Shown piece after piece: positions 20,201 through 53,030 of a DNA stretch of 64,000 bases. Positions within the stretch are counted from its first letter, which is position 1, and each line of letters begins with the position of its first letter. Source of the stretch: Beverwykella pulmonaria (taxonomy: Eukaryota > Ascomycota > Dothideomycetes > Pleosporales > Melanommataceae); assembly GCA_001599595.1 (NCBI GenBank), contig BCHH01000015.1, positions 128,914 to 192,913 of the forward strand, written 5' to 3'. The translations under genes and the position numbers were made by a program. Under the pieces are notes generated by a model. The model did no database searches. It saw only the letters and a list, made by a program, of their open reading frames with translations, and was not told the origin of the DNA.

Positions 20201-20276
20201 TAAAATTTAAAATTTATTTTTACTTTTTGTATATATACAAATAATATTTAAAATTTCACTTATAAAACTTCAATTA
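17253..20276. other. 3-kb gene-free AT-rich region
   Basis: Promoter of the DUF1996 gene followed by a long spacer. Both strands are closed by frequent stops. A stretch at about 18480-19150 has a purine/pyrimidine-biased, protein-like texture with many TAG and TAA codons in all frames, as decayed coding or transposon DNA would have, but I could not identify it. No RNA gene was found before 20277. Confidence 0.45.
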
Positions 20277-20312
20277 GCATCGGTGGTTTAGTGGTAAAAT
20301 TAGCCGTTGCCA

Positions 20313-20337
20313 CAGCGCCTTCAGAGCGTCTGTAAAC
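20313..20337 (+). other. Canonical anticodon-loop intron of tRNA-Gly
   Basis: A 25-nt insert one base 3' of the anticodon, where the tRNA splicing endonuclease normally cuts. It can fold on itself (CAGCGC with GCG-U-CUG around a CTTCAGA loop). Placement is unique if the 37/38 rule is applied. Confidence 0.75.
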
Positions 20338-20357
20338 TCGGCTAGCCCCGGGTTCGA

Positions 20358-20411
20358 GTGAGTTTGCATTATCAGCCGCCATTCCTAGCAATGAAGACTA
20401 ATTCAAAATAG
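20358..20411 (+). other. 54-nt spliceosomal-intron-like insert in the tRNA T loop
   Basis: Starts GTGAGT, has CTAAT at 20398-20402 as a possible branch site 9 nt before the 3' end, and ends AATAG. Because flanking bases differ, the insertion borders can be placed in only one way, and that placement is exactly GT..AG. Its length matches the protein-gene introns in this window (mostly 41-70 nt). It separates the two halves of the B box. Confidence 0.7.
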
Positions 20412-20436
20412 TTCCCGGCCGATGCATTTACCTAAC

Positions 20437-20443
20437 TTTTTTT
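20437..20443 (+). terminator. Pol III T7 terminator of the tRNA-Gly gene
   Basis: Seven consecutive T residues 11 nt after the discriminator base, the usual Pol III termination signal. Confidence 0.7.
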
Positions 20444-21145: not shown

Positions 21146-24100
21146 TCAAGAAAACAATTCGTTAATTCGCTCATCTAGTCCCGGCGTTGGTGGCTCCGTA
21201 CTCGGTGTCGTGACTTGAGGCACAAGACCTTTCATCATATATACCAGATCAGCCGCTTTGAATGGCTTCTGCATGACACGATCCTGAATTTCATAAGCAT
21301 TGCCACTTTTATTCGATTTTATGAATTGAAAGTCGTGATGGGAATACTTACTGCACCAGCGGCCACGGCAGTATCGATCTGCTCCTGTCGCACATTGGCC
21401 GTGACCGCAATGACTGGCAATCTCAAGCCCATTCTCACACCTAGTAAGCCCTCACCGTCTCGCTCCCTCTTTCGTATCTCGCGCATTGCTTCGATCCCAT
21501 TCAGCACTGGCATCTCCAAATCCATGAGAACCACGTCGAAATTCTTCTGTTCCAGGAAATTCAGGGCCTCAAGTCCGTGATTGGCGACCTCGACGATACA
21601 GCCGGCCTTCCTGAGCTGTTTGCTGAGAACCTGTTGATTAATGAGGTTGTCTTCGACAAGGAGGACATCAAGCGGTTGCGGAGCCGGGCCCACACCGCCG
21701 CATTCTTGGAAGAGCTCTCCAAGTGTCTGTGGACGGCGCTCAACACGTCTAGTCTTCACGTAGAAGCCAAATGTAGATCCATGACCAGGTGTGGAAGACA
21801 CGCCGATTTCACCGCCTTGCTTCTCAGTCAATTCTTTCGATATGAAAAGCCCCAATCCGCTGCCACCGTACTTGACGTGCGTGCGCATATTCGCTTGTCG
21901 GAATCGCTCGAAGATCTTATGGATCTCCTTTCCCTGCATGCCAATGCCCGAGTCTTTGACAGTGAAGGTGAGATAGACTTCTTCGCCTTTGCCCCATTCT
22001 GGATTCCCTGTTACGTCGCCGTTGTCCTGGCCCTTGGTGGCCCAGAACATATCTTCGTGAAAGAAAGTGCGCGGATTGGATAGCGAGGCACCAAAACGAA
22101 TGAAGATCTCTCTTTTTTCGGACGGTTTCACAAAATTGATAGCGTTTGTAAGGAGGTTAATAAAGATTTGAGTGACACGGGAGGGATCGAGATACAGATA
22201 GTCAATCTCCAGCTGTGCTAGCGATTGGTCTGGTGTAACATTGGAGCAAATTTTGTTCGACTTGAGCTCAGCATCGAAAATGCCGACGATGGAGGTAACG
22301 AGCTTGAAAGGCCTCACGGCGCTCGGCGTGATAGATAGTAACATAGAATCAAGCTTACTCAGCGTCAGAACGTCGTCAATTATTCGCTTCTGGTGATTCG
22401 CGCATTGCATAATTATATTTGCTGATGCGGCATTGTCCGTCATGGCATCAAGGCAGGACTCGGGAATGTCTGTGAGCTTCAAACGGAGATCATCGAGGGC
22501 GTTACTGATTTCGTCGGCGCAGTGGACGATGGCGCTTAAGGGGTTCCTCATTTCATGAGATACAACATCAATAAAAGCTTCCTGTTGTCGCTTTGCCTCT
22601 CGGGCTTCTGCAGCTAGCTGTGCTTGAAAGGTCTGAGCCCACTTTAGCCTGCTAATGTCGGTGGTGCAGGCCATGATGGACTTCACCTTACCATTCTCGC
22701 GGTATGGGAAGGCTAGAACCTGAAGCTGAGCAGGCTCAGTATTTCCAGTGGGAGAAGTGTAGAGGCGTTTCAATCGAAGTTCTGAATTCACGTGGTTGAG
22801 GCCATTGACAAGCTGATCCCAGAGTTTCTCGGCCTTGGTCCGATCTTCATCCAGGTAGACATCAAAGAAGCGTTTTGGCTCCAACTGCTCTTGCTGGCTC
22901 TTGCCGGAGAGTGCATAGTAGTGGTCGTTGGCCCACAGCAATTGCCCTTCCAACGAAATGTGGACCATGCCGACTGAGGCATGCTCAATGAGGTGACGAA
23001 GCTTCATGTCGCTGAATGCGAGGTCGGCCTGCAACTGCAGCTCCCGCTTCCTGGACTCTTCTGTATCGAAAGCGGAGGATATAATACTAGACGCCATTCG
23101 ACTCAGGTCCTTTAAGAACTGCTGGCAGAAGTCATCGTGTGGCCGATGCGGGTTGGTCCCGACGATGAGATAGCCGAATACGCGCGACCCACTCGTCATG
23201 GGTAAGATGGCAATCTTCTTCGAAGGCGTGCCGAAACCTTGCCAGGAAATGGAGTCGAAGCGTTGGTCGTAGTCAATGGTGAGCGCCTCCGACCCTGCGC
23301 GGCGGCAGTCGGGGATGAGGCCTTCGGAGCTGTTTAGGTCGTGCCCATCGACTATCAGGTTGTGGTTCTCAGGGAGGCCAATGTGCCCCCGCAGCCACAG
23401 CATGGTCGGCTCGGAGGTGGTGTCGGCCTCGTACAGCATCGCCAGGGGTATGTCATACCCGTTGGTCTTGAGGGTGGTAATAATGTGAGCGCTCACAGCT
23501 TCAGAGGTGAGGTGCGGGACAGCGGCCATGCGATTGAGCATCATGGTCCGTCGTTCGGCCAGCTTCTGCTCGGTGACCTCGACGAGCGAGTTGTAGAAGC
23601 CCTCGGGCTGGTTAGTGGGACCACTGCTCAGCGGCACGAAGTTGCCCGCGAAGAAGGCCTCCTCGCGCCTCCCCCAACGCTCGACTATGAGTGACATGGA
23701 TGCCGAGTAGTCGACGCCGCGGCCGGTGCGGCGGGCCTCGTTGAAGTAGGGCGCAATGCTAGGCCACAGGTCCGGATAGCCCTCAACGAAGGTAGAGCCC
23801 ATGAGCCTGGGGTGTGCCTGGGCGGCGAGGGGCATGTAGGTCTCATTGTAGATGGCGACGAGGTCGGGGCCCCTGCAAGAGGTCAGTTCTTGGACTAAGC
23901 ACCGTGTGTATGCTGTTGTCGTTGGTATCCAGGCTGCGGACATACCACCACAGACAGGCCGCGCGCGAGTCTGCGAGGACCATGCGCGTGAAGAGCCGCA
24001 GCGTGGGGCTCCAGTCCTTCAGTGGCCCCAGCCTGCTACGCGTCCAGTCGGTCGCGCGGAAGAAGCGCACATGAGCGCTGTCGGGCAAGTCGAGTGTCCA

Positions 24101-47407: not shown

Positions 47408-49991
47408 CTACCGCATCGAGGTAGGCGAGACGCTACCGTCGCGCTCCTCGTCCACATCCCTTTCCTCACCCTCATTACCCCCATTTTGGTCACTCTCCTC
47501 CTCCTTCTCCTGGTATGCTGGTGGTCCCAGCTCATCCCCACCCTCAACCCACACCTTATTCAGCTCATCCTCAATCTCTTGCCTCCTCGTCTTCCACTCC
47601 TCGACCTTCGCAAGACGTTCTCTGAGCTCGGCGAGTTCTTTCTCGACGCTCGATTTCTCGCTCTCAGTGCCAATGCGTTGGAATTCCCATTCTTCGCCGT
47701 GGGCGCCGAGCCCAAGGGTTAGTGTGAAGGTGTGGTACCGTTTGAGGGACGCACGGGTTGAGATGGTTATTAGTGCTGTGGGGCATAGTCAGCACAGGCT
47801 CTCAAAAGTAGCGGTATGGAGATGAGGGGGCAAGGAAAAAGAACTGACTTATGCCCTTCGCCTTAGCCCGTTCATACAACAGGCCTTCCACATCGCTAGA
47901 CACGGCACTCGTAGCCTCATCCAGAAACGCATAGCGAGGCTCATGATACAGCAGTCTGGCAATGCCAATTCTCTGCTTCTCGCCTCCACTGAATACATCT
48001 TTCCATACTTTCTTGGTGTCCCAGCCGCCCTCTCGATCAGGAATGTATCCTAGCTTTGCTTCTTCGAGAACTTGGCTGAGTTCGTAGTCTCGACGTCCCG
48101 CGTCTTTCATATCAACCTCGGTGTGTGGGTAGATGACCTGGTCGCGCAGAGTGCCGGTACTAAGGTATGGGCGTTGAGGCAGGAACATGATGCCGTCCTG
48201 GCCCGTGGAGCGGGGTCTACTTACCAGCCCACGATATGTGGGCCACAGTCCTGCAACGATGCGGGATACGGCGCTCTTTCCGACGCCGTTGGGACCAGTG
48301 ATAAGCAGATGCTCGCCGGAATGCACGATGAACGAGAGAGACTCGAGAAGTTCGTCGCCTCCCATGGGAAATAAGGCGGGAGCAACGACGGGGACATGTT
48401 CAAGTCGAAGACCGTCAAAGCCCTTGTGAACTGTGCCTTGGATGTCGGAGAGCGAATAGAGTTCAGGTCGTGTGCCGGGAAGTGGATAGTACGCGTCGGC
48501 ATGGACGCGGTGAAGTGTACTAATCAGTGTGTATACGCGAGACGTGTATCCTGCGAGTTCGGACAGATCCTTGATCGAGTACATCATTCGACCACCGGCG
48601 TCGGCAAGTGACAGCATGAGTCGCTTGTTAGTGATGAAGTCTTTCATCCGGTTGCGTTCCCGATGGGAACGTTCTCCGCTGCTTCCAGCCAACTCTGAGC
48701 CGCCGCCTCGTCCTCCCCATGCTGGTAAGAATACAGGGAGTGATGTGATGAGATAACCAAATGCGGACCACGAGTACTTCAACACAAAGTCTTCAAGCAT
48801 GTTATACCGGATCTTCAAGCTATAGATGCCTTCCATCCAATGTTTCAGCTCTTTGAATCCCTTGTCCAAGAAATGCTTCTCCATCTGGTCACCGCCGTAA
48901 AATGCGACCTCTTCGGCATTCGCTATGAGACGGGAATGGAGGGCGCGGAAGTCGCCTTCTCTGCGGCCTTCTACGGCTTTGAGTTTACCAAACGGAGGAG
49001 ACAGCCTTCGAAGAATGGTCGCCGTCAGGAAGTAATTTCCGAAAAGCCCAGTCAGCGCCAGCGGACCAAGAGATTGGACCAGTTGGTAGTTGAACACACA
49101 TATGTCCACGAACGGCTTTCCCAGCGAGGAATACAGCGACGCTGCCGATGCGCAGAACAGTGTCAGGTCCTGCGTGATGAATTGATCCGCACCTAGCCCG
49201 ACACCACCATCCATATTCGAAAGCTTGTAGTAGTTGAGGTGGTCGTTGAGATACAAGTCGTGAATGTACCGTGTAAGGCGGGTGCGGAAAGCGATTGAGA
49301 CTTTGGACTGCAAGAACTTGATCATCGCATTCGTGTACGATGAGAATGTCCCGACTCCCAGCCACTGCACGATGCCCCAGAGGAAGGCCTTGCCATTGCC
49401 GGCCACCAGGTCTCGCACAATCTCTCCGTCTAGCCGTGCAACGACGAGCGAGAGATATGTCCGCAGCATCAAGAAGACGCTGTGGCTGACGAGAAGCCCT
49501 GTTTCCTTGCTATTCCATCGCGGTATCATTATATTTAACAAGCTGAGGAATTGGTGGAGGAACGCGAGGTTCAAGCCAGGCTTCGTCTGGGGTGGGGGAG
49601 CTTGCGGATTGCTCCCATCGGCCATGCGCGCCGCGCGCGGAGGCTGGAGGAAGAGGCGACGGTGGGCATCGAAGGTAGTCTGTTTCGTAGGGTAGATGAC
49701 GACCTTGGACGTGGAGTCGCGGTACGGAACGTAGATGGTCCTCGAGCCGTCCTTGCCTCTCAACCCCGAATTCCTGCGCAGGAGCCGTCGCCCTGTTTCC
49801 TTCTCCGCGCGCCATTTTCTATACCATCGGCTTCCGCCATATGCAGAGCCAATTATCGCGAGGGCGAGTGTGATGGTGGAGACGAGCTTGGTGAACTTCG
49901 AGGCCCTGGAGACGCGGGATCGGAGGATTGCGACATAGCGGCGGTAGAGTTCCAGCAGTGGATCATGTCGAAGAGTTGATTGTACAGCCAT
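47408..49991 (-). CDS. Peroxisomal long-chain fatty acid ABC half-transporter (ABCD family, Pxa1/Pxa2-like), two exons
   Basis: Predicted 836-residue ABC half-transporter. Exon 1 is 49991-47849, the 73-nt intron 47848-47776 (GTCAGT..CAG), exon 2 47775-47408. ABCD-family transmembrane region: LNLAFLHQFLSLLNIMIPRW, SVFLMLRTYLSLVVARLDGE, the EAA-like segment NAEEVAFYGGDQMEKHFLDK (about 358-377) and YSIKDLSELAGYTSRV. Nucleotide-binding domain: Walker A GPNGVGKS (566-573), signature FSGGEKQR (from 667), Walker B YAFLDEATSA (D691, E692). After splicing, KGITLITISTRASLKRYH supplies the switch region, where a His is usual. A Glu-rich coiled-coil tail (about 100 residues) follows. Such proteins dimerise in the peroxisome membrane and import acyl-CoA for beta-oxidation. 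Which of the two yeast subunits it matches is not certain. Confidence 0.92.
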
Positions 49992-50389
49992 CGTGGGCTA
50001 TCGGCGTCTCCCGGGAGAGAGATGGCATCGGGCAATACAAGATGGCGGCGGAGGACGAGGTCGATGCTTGGTGACAGGCTTATGCTGTGCTCAATGGGAC
50101 GGCGTGGAGACAACCGTGCCTTCTGATTTCCTTGCTAGAATCGCATGGGTGACTAGAAGCTACATGTAGCAAAGGTTAGGAAGTATTCCGGTCTGTCATG
50201 TGTGTGTTGATGTCTATGAAGCCCGTAACGATGCCACATGCGGGCGTGAATTGGAGCCGAGGCATGTGAGAAAGCCTCGTGACGCCACCACCACCACCAC
50301 CACTGGAAGCATGCAACTTAGTAAGCATATAAGGAGCAACACACGGCTCAGAAACTGGTATTGATATTATTTGACAGGTAACAATCATA
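49992..50389. other. Spacer with an (ACC)n microsatellite
   Basis: About 400 bp between the ABC transporter start and the NOC2 stop. It contains an ACC/CCA trinucleotide run at about 50285-50303. No gene recognised. Confidence 0.5.
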
Positions 50390-52801
50390 CTACTCGTCGT
50401 CTTCCTCCGAGTCGTCGTCAATCAAGTCGATCTCGTCCTCATTCTCGTCCCCGGAGTCAACAAAGTCCCCCGCATTGTCCACAGCATCTTGCTCCTCGGC
50501 CTGCTTGCGCTTTTTGTCGTCCGTCTTCCTCGCGGCTTCCAACATCTTTGCCTTTTGTTCCCTGGTTTTCCTCTGTCCGGTAACGTACGCGCCCAGCGGG
50601 CTCTTTTCCCATTCGACATCCTTGAGGAAGCCTTCGACGCCCGCTCGATCATTTGGTGCAAAGTCGACCTTTGCCCTCTTCTCCTCGATCCACTTGGTGT
50701 TTGTCTCGAGCTTCTGAACTAGCAGTGCTATTGCAGAATTGATCTTGGCATTCCGGTTACCGCTGTTCTTCTTCGACATGGCCTTCACCCAGCGCTTTAG
50801 CATGACAATCACGGGCAATGCCAGCTCGGGAAAAGCAATGTTCTTGGCCCAGAGAACAAAGAACTCGGAAAGTAGCTCTGCTACTTGCTCGCCAACCCCA
50901 TCTTGATAAACTCTTGTCCGTAGGTATGCCTTGGGCGCTCGAATCGACGTGTTGAATTCCAGGACTTTCAGTGTGCTCGGCTTCGGTAGCTTCTTCATCT
51001 CCGCAGAGCTTAGCACCTCGACCAGAGCCGGCGCAAGTGGTATATATGTCAAGGTAGCGGCTGATATCCGGAGGAGAGATCTGATCAATTGGAAGCGGAG
51101 GGGGAAGTATTGCGCAGTCGGAATCAAACGCATAGCCCCGAGAGTGACTTGGACGATTGGATATATGAGTGGCCGCAGTGGTGACTCTTTGCCGGATTCA
51201 GCCTCCCGTAGTGACTCACAATGCGCCGAAACCACTCGCGACCAAAAGTCCAAGGAGTGGACGTACTGCCAGTTGTAGACAGTTTTGTACGAATCTTTGG
51301 TCTTGTTGGTGATGCTGGAACGTAGATGGACGGCAAGCTGCCGTATAAAGGCAAACCCCGTAGTGTATCCAACGCTAGGCTCAAGGCCCCAGAGTTCTGA
51401 AGCCGTGTTCTTCATCAAGTTGATGCCCTGAATGTTGTGCACGGTCGTATTCCGGGCGCCCTTGATGAGGCCCTGGTATGTCTGCTTCAAGACAGCTTCC
51501 TTAATGCCAGAATCGGCAATGAGAACCAAGCGCCGCAGGACCAAGAAAGCAGACAGCCGAGTGGCTTCGGTGTTGGCAGAATCTGCCCATACGGACGAGA
51601 CAATTTTTGTCACTTCCCGTACGATTTTCTTGAAGGACAGAATGTATGGTAATAGGGAGAGGATCGACTCTAGAGTCATCCGAAGCGTGGACGCATCGGA
51701 AAGGTTCTCGAGAAGATGGTGCAGAGAAACTGTGTGCGATTTAAGGAGCGGAGTCAGTGTGCGGAATTTCTTCGAGTCGGTAGACAGGCGCCTGTTCCTG
51801 TTAATCGATGGTCGATTCGTACCATTCAACTGACTTACACTTTGCCCGAAGCGGATTCCTTCACGGGTAGATGATGCTGGAGCACTCTCGGTATTTGCTG
51901 GAGGGCTGTAACGAGAACCTCGTGATAGGCTATTTCAAGTTAGTCGCCATGTGGCTGGTACAAAGGAGTTGAAAATACCATTTGGATCAGAGATGGAGTA
52001 CTTGTACGTCTTCCCGCCATCATCATTCAGATGTGCTGCGGCACGGAAGGCAAGCGCCACTTCCTTCATGGCCCTCAACGAGTAGGCCGTCTCCATTGAC
52101 AATCTCCATTTCTCGATAATCTTTGTTGTGACCTCTTTATCACCTGATTCTTCTTCTTCGTCTTCGTCTTCGTCTTCGTCTTCTTCGTCACTTTCGACTT
52201 TCGAAGCCTTGGCCGACTTCTGCTTCTTCCGCGGTGTCTTTTCGTCCTCGCTCGCGCTGAGCGCATCCATCTCTTCCAGGTCCGCGTCCTCCGCAAAGTC
52301 GAGAAGTTCGGCGTCGTTGTCCTTTAGGTATTTGTAAAACTCGGGGTCTTTATCCGCGAGCGCTGCGAGCTGTTCTTTGTGAGCCTCGGCGTCATCGCCC
52401 GAGTCGCTGTCAGGACCAGACTCGTCTGCGCCGGGTTCCGCCTCGGCCATTTCTTCGTCTGAGTCCGACGCTCCGTCTTCTTCAATGGGTGTGCGCTTTC
52501 GCTTTCCCGTCTTCGGCTTCCCCCCGCTCTTTTTCGCCATTTCTGGGAGCTGGAAGCCGCCCTGGAAGAACTGGTCCATGGACATTTCCCCAAGAGACTC
52601 GTCGGCCCCCTCCTTGCTCTTGGGCTTTTTTCCACCATCGATTTCTACGCCATTGGCGGGCTCGTTGTCTTGTGCTCGGCGCTGCTTGCGCTTTGCCTTA
52701 ATCTGCTGCTTCTGCTTGATCTTCCCTACGACTTTGCGGCTTTTGAGGACGTCGTGCAGGCGGTTCTTCTCGAACTTCTTCGTGGACTTGGAGGGCGGCA
52801 T
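50390..52801 (-). CDS. noc2: NOC2 nucleolar complex protein, three exons
   Basis: Predicted 773-residue ribosome biogenesis factor. Exons 52801-51979, 51929-51839 and 51797-50390; introns 49 and 41 nt. The N-terminus is lysine-rich (MPPSKSTKKFEKNRLHDVLK) with nucleolar-type basic runs, then a long Asp/Glu/Ser region including an uninterrupted acidic run at about residues 208-220. The Noc2 domain follows: SLRAMKEVALAFRAAAH, SDPNAYHEVLVTALQQIPRV, GLIKGARNTTVHNIQGINLM, LEPSVGYTTGFAFIRQLA, NWQYVHSLDFWSRVVSAHC and LRPLIYPIVQVTLGAMRLIP. The C-terminus ends in another acidic tract. Noc2 pairs with Noc1 and then Noc3 to move pre-60S particles from nucleolus to nucleoplasm. Head to head with VPS28, 229 bp apart. 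Confidence 0.95.
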
Positions 52802-53030
52802 CTTGGGGTGTTTTCGGCTCCTCGTTCGCCGCGGGATCGAGGTGGACGGGTGCGTGGTGCGGCTTGCATGGCCAAAGTTTGTGCTCGAAAAAGTTCACCT
52901 CGCGCCAAGATTTCGGATTCTGGTCCGAGCTTGCGCGCTAGCCATTCGCCGGAGCGAATGCAGGCACAGGCGACCGAACGATGCTGGCTTGACACGCGCG
53001 AAGCTCTCGAGCCTCTCATCACCAAGCATC
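52802..53030. promoter_or_regulatory. 229-bp bidirectional promoter (NOC2 / VPS28)
   Basis: GC-rich, no TATA box evident. It separates the divergent start codons of two housekeeping genes. Confidence 0.55.

Follow-up and report, generated by a model that had tools for sequence, protein, structure and literature searches.

A tRNA-Gly(GCC) gene of Beverwykella pulmonaria with a spliceosomal-type intron in its T loop, one of at least 19 tRNA genes split outside the anticodon loop

The window analyzed here, a 64,000-nt stretch of the Pleosporales ascomycete Beverwykella pulmonaria, corresponds to positions 128914-192913 of contig C15 (BCHH01000015.1) in a 45.6-Mb assembly of 31 contigs, and carries on its plus strand a tRNA-Gly(GCC) gene (20277-20426) with two inserts, of 25 nt and 54 nt. 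Exon 1 (20277-20312) provides the 5' strand of the acceptor stem, the D arm and the anticodon GCC, and extends up to position 37, where it meets an ordinary anticodon-loop intron of 25 nt (20313-20337) at the endonuclease-type position 37/38. Exon 2 (20338-20357) covers positions 38-58, ends in GGGTTCGA, and is followed by a 54-nt T-loop intron of the spliceosome type (20358-20411). This second insert lies at 58/59, away from the canonical 37/38 position, which 20313-20337 alone occupies. Exon 3 (20412-20426) contains the 3' strands of the T stem and the acceptor stem and the discriminator A. The gene is flanked on the same strand by a TATA-like element, TATATATA (20230-20237), 47 nt 5' of tRNA nucleotide 1, and by a seven-T run of the Pol III terminator type (20437-20443). 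An earlier sequence-only reading of this locus had reported the GTGAGT start, the TAG end and the T7 terminator, all of which are indeed found in the sequence. It had also placed a CTAAT motif 9 nt before the intron end; the branch-site motif is present (20398-20402), but that figure is counted from its last base, and its first base lies 14 nt before the 3' splice site. Elsewhere in the window, on the minus strand, are a histidine-kinase-like open reading frame recognized by eye (21319-24018), a peroxisomal ABC transporter gene whose product is 93% identical to a Pleomassaria siparia protein (47802-49997), and a Noc2 gene with Melanomma and Pleomassaria as the closest named records (50390-52894).

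In the unspliced window, neither ARAGORN nor Rfam reports a tRNA at the Gly locus. Once the 54 nt are excised, ARAGORN types the gene as tRNA-Gly(gcc) with a 25-nt intron at 37, and excision of both inserts gives a 71-nt mature tRNA, the same as that of a paralogue at C11:917907. As this paralogue has no anticodon intron, it gives independent support for the 37/38 intron borders of the window gene. The proposal of a two-insert tRNA-Gly(GCC) gene with a 71-nt mature form is thus confirmed both by ARAGORN after excision and by the C11 paralogue. The stems of the window gene are paired, not decayed as in a pseudogene. In predicted folds, the unspliced 150-nt form keeps the acceptor stem and loses the cloverleaf, and the 71-nt form has the acceptor, anticodon and T stems. 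A group I or group II intron was considered and set aside, as the insert is only 54 nt long and no group I/II intron core was matched in Rfam between 20200 and 20500 at E-values up to 10.

A genome search with the joined Gly(GCC) tRNA as DNA query (68 nt, with three anticodon-loop bases missing) found three Gly(GCC) genes, and all three have a T-loop insert at 58/59. The inserts are 54, 53 and 50 nt long, and each begins with GTRAG and ends with TAG. The three copies agree completely in their mature sequence, but their introns, at 59-63% identity in gapped alignments, are nearly unalignable. A 150-nt query that included the window intron matched only these three genes, and a scan of viral contigs with the Gly exon gave no match. 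The 32 best-scored RF00005 matches included no intact Gly(GCC) gene; ARAGORN typed 30 of them, none as gcc. The sequence-only reading had held that many intact Gly(GCC) genes, together with the absence of any transcript, would point to a recent pseudogene, and no intact copy was seen in these genome searches, which were not exhaustive. A GCC anticodon is required for reading GGC and GGU codons, and therefore at least one of the split Gly(GCC) genes should work.

The T-loop insert is no lone oddity, as inserts of this kind recur across the genome. The junction itself is a poor guide to them: the pattern GGTTCRAGTRHGY had 39 genome matches compared with 52 for its reversed control, and a second junction pattern, HGTTCRAGTRAGY, had 23 compared with 47. 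Because the 13-base junction motif is not enriched over its reversed control, most GGTTCRAGTRHGY matches are due to chance, and the evidence lies in the surrounding tRNA and not in the junction motif. In 14 of the 39 matches, the window gene included, a T stem is re-formed after an AG 47-55 nt downstream; these belong to Gly (three), Ala(AGC) (two), Asp (two), Arg(ACG) (two), Pro (two), Val(AAC), Cys and Ile(TAT). Among the remaining 25, L095 and L100 had a chance 5-bp match and no tRNA. The pattern HGTTCRAGTRAGY, which represents a 58/59 junction after a non-G at position 52, yielded no tRNA in any of its 23 matches, all of which were fetched.

In an excision test, a GT..AG segment of 47-54 nt was cut from each of 62 GTTCRA|GTR junction matches before submission to ARAGORN. 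A tRNA was called in 11 of the 62 spliced sequences and in none of the unspliced ones, with the expected isotype in 10 of the 11 (the Asp gene on C2 was mistyped); one Ala gene was also called with a second AG, at 68 nt. For the Asp gene on C10, the Arg gene on C5 and the Pro gene on C8, a D-arm intron must be removed as well before ARAGORN makes a call. Altogether, ARAGORN found a tRNA after excision in 18 of the 18 genes tested, with the expected anticodon in 15; Asp C2, Arg C5 and Pro C8 were mistyped, with an anticodon-loop intron still in place, and their isotypes were assigned manually. ARAGORN also accepts deletions that are one to a few nucleotides off the border, in a few genes further off, and it called tRNAs for some deletions without a terminal AG. 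Since small loop changes are tolerated, the border that it gives is only rough, and the exact borders were derived from the canonical seven-base T loop and from paralogues.

The resulting catalogue contains 23 inserts outside the anticodon loop, distributed over at least 19 tRNA genes and 13 manually assigned isoacceptors: Gly(GCC), Ala(AGC), Asp(GTC), Arg(ACG), Val(AAC), Val(TAC), Pro(TGG), Pro(CGG), Cys(GCA), Ile(TAT), His(GTG), Lys(CTT) and Ser(GCT). Fourteen of the inserts are at 58/59. Three others are located in the T stem, either at 53/54 (His on C2 and Lys(CTT) on C12) or at 52/53 (the Val(AAC) gene C3b), and one in the variable arm (Ser(GCT) on C2). The five in the D arm are at 15/16 (Asp C10, Asp C2 and Val(TAC) on C6), at 12/13 (Arg C5) and after position 20 (Pro C8). 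Four genes, namely Asp C10, Asp C2, Arg C5 and Pro C8, combine two such introns with an anticodon-loop intron. By eye, one anticodon-stem pair of the Ile(TAT) gene is mismatched. The catalogue is incomplete, being built from the best-scored candidates only, and one genome search missed the already known Pro C8 gene. Genes for Glu, Phe, Tyr, Trp and other tRNAs never appeared among those best-scored candidates, and a DNA query with 14 tRNA sequences returned only two Met genes, both known already. About 53 tRNA genes were seen, plus a truncated one, but as split genes were sought deliberately, 19 of 53 is a biased share. The truncated-looking locus (L082, from C8:2188285) has a tRNA-Asn(GTT)-like 5' part and an anticodon intron with no T arm seen after it.

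The inserts have the splice signals of spliceosomal introns. Together with an intron in the U6 snRNA gene described below, they form a set of 24, all of which have GT..AG at borders defined by structure. All 24 have a G at position 5, and 21 have a T at position 6. A YTRAY motif occurs 13-17 nt before the 3' end in every one of them, compared with a mean of 1.7 and a maximum of 8 in 5000 shuffles. The introns are 47-55 nt long, with a single exception of 72 nt; other exceptions are an AAG at one 3' splice site and a T or C at position 3 of five 5' sites. Five protein-gene intron candidates in the window, joined by open reading frames and selected for the branch motif, measure 48-73 nt, against 47-72 nt for the tRNA and U6 set, and have YTRAY 12-19 nt from the end, although this sample is small and noisy; the ABC transporter gene has an intron supported by homology, which was left out of the comparison. 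We are confident that the inserts represent spliceosomal-type introns in genuine tRNA genes.

The split genes also have the sequence signs of Pol III genes. A run of at least five T residues starts no more than 15 nt from the 3' end in all 19 of them. TTTT is a Pol III stop signal, and it is absent from all 24 introns, whereas shuffling at constant composition predicts 6.8 introns with TTTT and never gave zero in 5000 shuffles. In a noisy de novo set of protein-gene introns, TTTT was found in 12 of 56 candidates (Fisher p 0.014). As TTTT does occur within an exon of both split Ala genes, its absence from the introns does not reflect a strict ban. A TATA-like motif at -60 to -30 was found in 18 of the 19 split genes (shuffle mean 5.9) and in 21 of 31 other tRNA genes (shuffle mean 8.5), a difference with a one-sided Fisher p of 0.025, although the motif is loosely defined and is common at unsplit genes too. 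The 31 do not include a partial gene (L044), one without an ARAGORN call (L045), an unsplit Leu gene (L065) or the truncated Asn gene, and two genes had shorter upstream DNA (64 nt for Val C3b and 49 nt for L127). Within the genes, the introns at 58/59 leave the B-box core GGTTCRA intact on their 5' side, with loss of the later C, and in the His gene, split at 53/54, the last G of the intron is directly 5' of TTCGATTCC. In Asp C10, Asp C2 and Arg C5, the A and B boxes are both interrupted, and TFIIIC binding should therefore weaken.

The only U6 snRNA gene found (1501-1670 of L121, from C3:4042637) provides a parallel. It is interrupted after GATGACA by a 55-nt GT-AG intron, in the arrangement GATGACA|GTAAGT..CTAAC..CAG|CGCTCAATC, and it has a TATA-like element upstream, a T-run and, past the terminator, a motif resembling a B box, GGTTCGAATC. 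A 101-nt U6 match was initially a candidate for the full-length gene, but it runs into the intron, and the true 3' end is further on. The 5S rRNA genes are different: at least 23 were matched over nine contigs, all of them 120-121 nt long, and hence not every Pol III RNA is affected.

That an intron of the spliceosomal type lies within a gene of the Pol III type, one of two options raised by the sequence-only reading, is now strongly supported, but that reading had also taken the split B box to imply lost, weak or Pol II transcription. The latter proposal is not supported, as the three Gly(GCC) genes found are all built in this way with identical exons, their introns lack TTTT, and a TATA-like element and a T-run flank the gene. 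Among the alternatives, the one that survives best is a combination of spliceosomal introns with transcription by Pol II, which would give a capped precursor and would explain why broken A and B boxes are tolerated. The spliceosome normally works in association with Pol II, many of these genes have interrupted internal promoter boxes, and TATA boxes serve Pol II as well. However, the consistent T-runs and the TTTT-free introns argue against it, as does U6, a Pol III-transcribed RNA whose gene has the same kind of intron together with its own T-run. We therefore regard Pol II transcription as improbable.

Even less likely is removal of the inserts by the tRNA endonuclease and ligase, with the GT-AG appearance being incidental. 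A precedent is Cyanidioschyzon merolae, for which the available text of PMC9602550 describes introns in the D, anticodon and T arms and tRNAs with three introns, and that of PMC3978253 links such introns to bulge-helix-bulge (BHB) motifs. Excerpts of the same two papers indicate further similarities: the nuclear tRNA genes carry several introns each, their A and B boxes are interrupted, and a TATA-like element upstream and a T-stretch downstream have been proposed to drive their transcription; for broken-box genes, PMC3978253 proposes initiation at an upstream TATA with no involvement of TFIIIC. In contrast to those BHB introns, which are linked to the splicing endonuclease, the introns described here have GT..AG ends and a spaced branch motif without exception and are 47-72 nt long. 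A strict BHB motif with a 4-bp central helix was found in none of the 22 introns tested, i.e., all but those of Val C3b and U6; the best, in the His gene, reached three of the four pairs. Moreover, the anticodon-loop introns in unsplit genes of this genome are 9-34 nt long, and GT..AG ends are possible in only 2 of 18, even when any of seven registers is allowed.

Comparisons between paralogues bear on whether the split genes are instead recent pseudogenes that arose by insertion into spare tRNA copies. Ala(AGC), Ser(GCT) and Lys(CTT) do have unsplit paralogues, and there are an unsplit Pro(AGG) gene and a different, unsplit Asp gene, which speaks for such a scenario. The split Lys(CTT) gene (L081, C12:408490-408643; intron of 53 nt) and its unsplit counterpart (L031, C5:2977690-2977791) are identical at 103 of 103 nt, a stretch that includes a 29-nt anticodon intron, whereas their 60-nt upstream flanks align at only 60%; the pair may result from gene conversion or a recent copy. 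Ala(AGC) is represented by two split copies, with different introns at one site, and an unsplit copy, all identical at the 72 tRNA positions, and the split and unsplit Ser(GCT) genes are identical at 80 of 81 positions. These unsplit paralogues confirm the intron borders and show that introns were recently gained or lost. In the Asp pair, the exons are identical and the introns are recognizably related (75% and 71% identical), a pattern consistent with descent from a duplication. Between the two Val(AAC) genes, the exons do not differ but the intron sites do (58/59 and 52/53). On the other hand, no intact gene was found for Gly(GCC), His, Cys, Arg(ACG), Val(AAC), Val(TAC) or Ile(TAT) in searches that were non-exhaustive but in which intact copies should outscore split ones. 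In addition, the exons are kept while the introns diverge, and the T-runs and TATA-like elements are kept as well, which makes the pseudogene explanation highly improbable. Least probable of all is an artefact of assembly or contamination, since copies on many contigs have distinct inserts, all with splice signals, and the borders match the unsplit paralogues.

Considering these alternatives, we believe that the window locus is very probably a working Pol III tRNA-Gly(GCC) gene, one of at least 19 with U2-type spliceosomal introns outside the anticodon loop. Our best inference is that the spliceosome would remove these inserts from Pol III precursors before the endonuclease acts at 37/38. In the proposed pathway, the upstream TATA element would position Pol III through TFIIIB, with the A and B boxes weakened or partial, giving a precursor whose 3' end lies at the T-run. 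The spliceosome would then take out the T-arm, D-arm or variable-arm intron while the precursor is not yet able to form a cloverleaf. Finally, the restored tRNA fold would permit finishing by RNases P and Z, and the tRNA endonuclease and ligase would remove the 37/38 intron. Somewhat more tentatively, although we consider it more probable than otherwise, this lineage may have made the spliceosome an obligatory step for a large share of its cytosolic tRNAs.

In this scenario, the introns may have entered tRNA genes on many occasions, chiefly at one position directly past the B-box core, and such gains may have been tolerated because an upstream TATA box could replace TFIIIC-dependent initiation. 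Our leading guess for the preference for 58/59 is that most tRNAs share the exon sequence there and that the B-box core must also be preserved. In the Dothideomycetes, the same fungal class, introner-like elements are known for recurrent spliceosomal intron gain, but the shared intron sequence expected of such elements was not seen here. Among 276 intron pairs, only the T introns of the Asp paralogues stand out clearly, the others being close to noise. Introner-like copies of the 54-nt insert, for which the earlier reading had suggested a search, were not found elsewhere at the sensitivity of the search, and an introner family was dismissed on a genome-wide search with the window intron and pairwise comparison of the others. 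Intron gain can be tested directly with genes for the same tRNA that differ only in whether a spliceosomal intron is present.

Nuclear tRNA introns are generally taught as a separate world, cut by the endonuclease at 37/38. Canonical introns of this type are present in several of the split genes, including the 25-nt one in the window gene, but the inserts described here differ from them in position, length and ends. The nearest precedents are the spliceosomal introns of fungal U6 and U3 and the endonuclease-type ectopic introns of Cyanidioschyzon. The fungal U6 and U3 introns, like those described here, are short GT-AG introns in genes for small structured RNAs. Here, however, the hosts are nuclear tRNA genes of many isoacceptors, split at conserved tRNA positions, which may carry an endonuclease-type intron in addition. 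According to an excerpt of PMC5832005, no small structured RNAs other than U3 and U6 were known to be frequently split by an intron, and in the available part of PMC8450103 eukaryotic tRNA genes are said to have no more than one intron. According to the accessible text of PMC11782384, four intron classes have been reported for all major RNA types, with nuclear tRNA introns being of the archaeal type. Spliceosomal introns in nuclear tRNA genes are not mentioned in the available portions of PMC10245619 and PMC6461891, and no report of them was found in the literature at the level of titles and abstract openings, where subscription journals were thinly covered.

If our interpretation is true, several tRNAs would be built by two unrelated splicing machines in sequence, and tRNA supply would be tied to spliceosome activity. 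It would also extend spliceosomal splicing of Pol III transcripts beyond U6 and U3, and would demonstrate tRNA transcription despite broken internal promoters. From a practical point of view, the split genes expose a blind spot in tRNA annotation: as ARAGORN and Rfam missed the window gene, tRNAs that appear to be missing from other fungal genomes may be likewise hidden.

A minor observation concerns the 5' splice sites. Four of the five D-arm introns and the intron of Val C3b start with GTYAGT, in three cases as GTTAGTAAT, while the introns at 58/59 start with GTR. This GTYAGT bias possibly reflects an A-box constraint or a shared origin.
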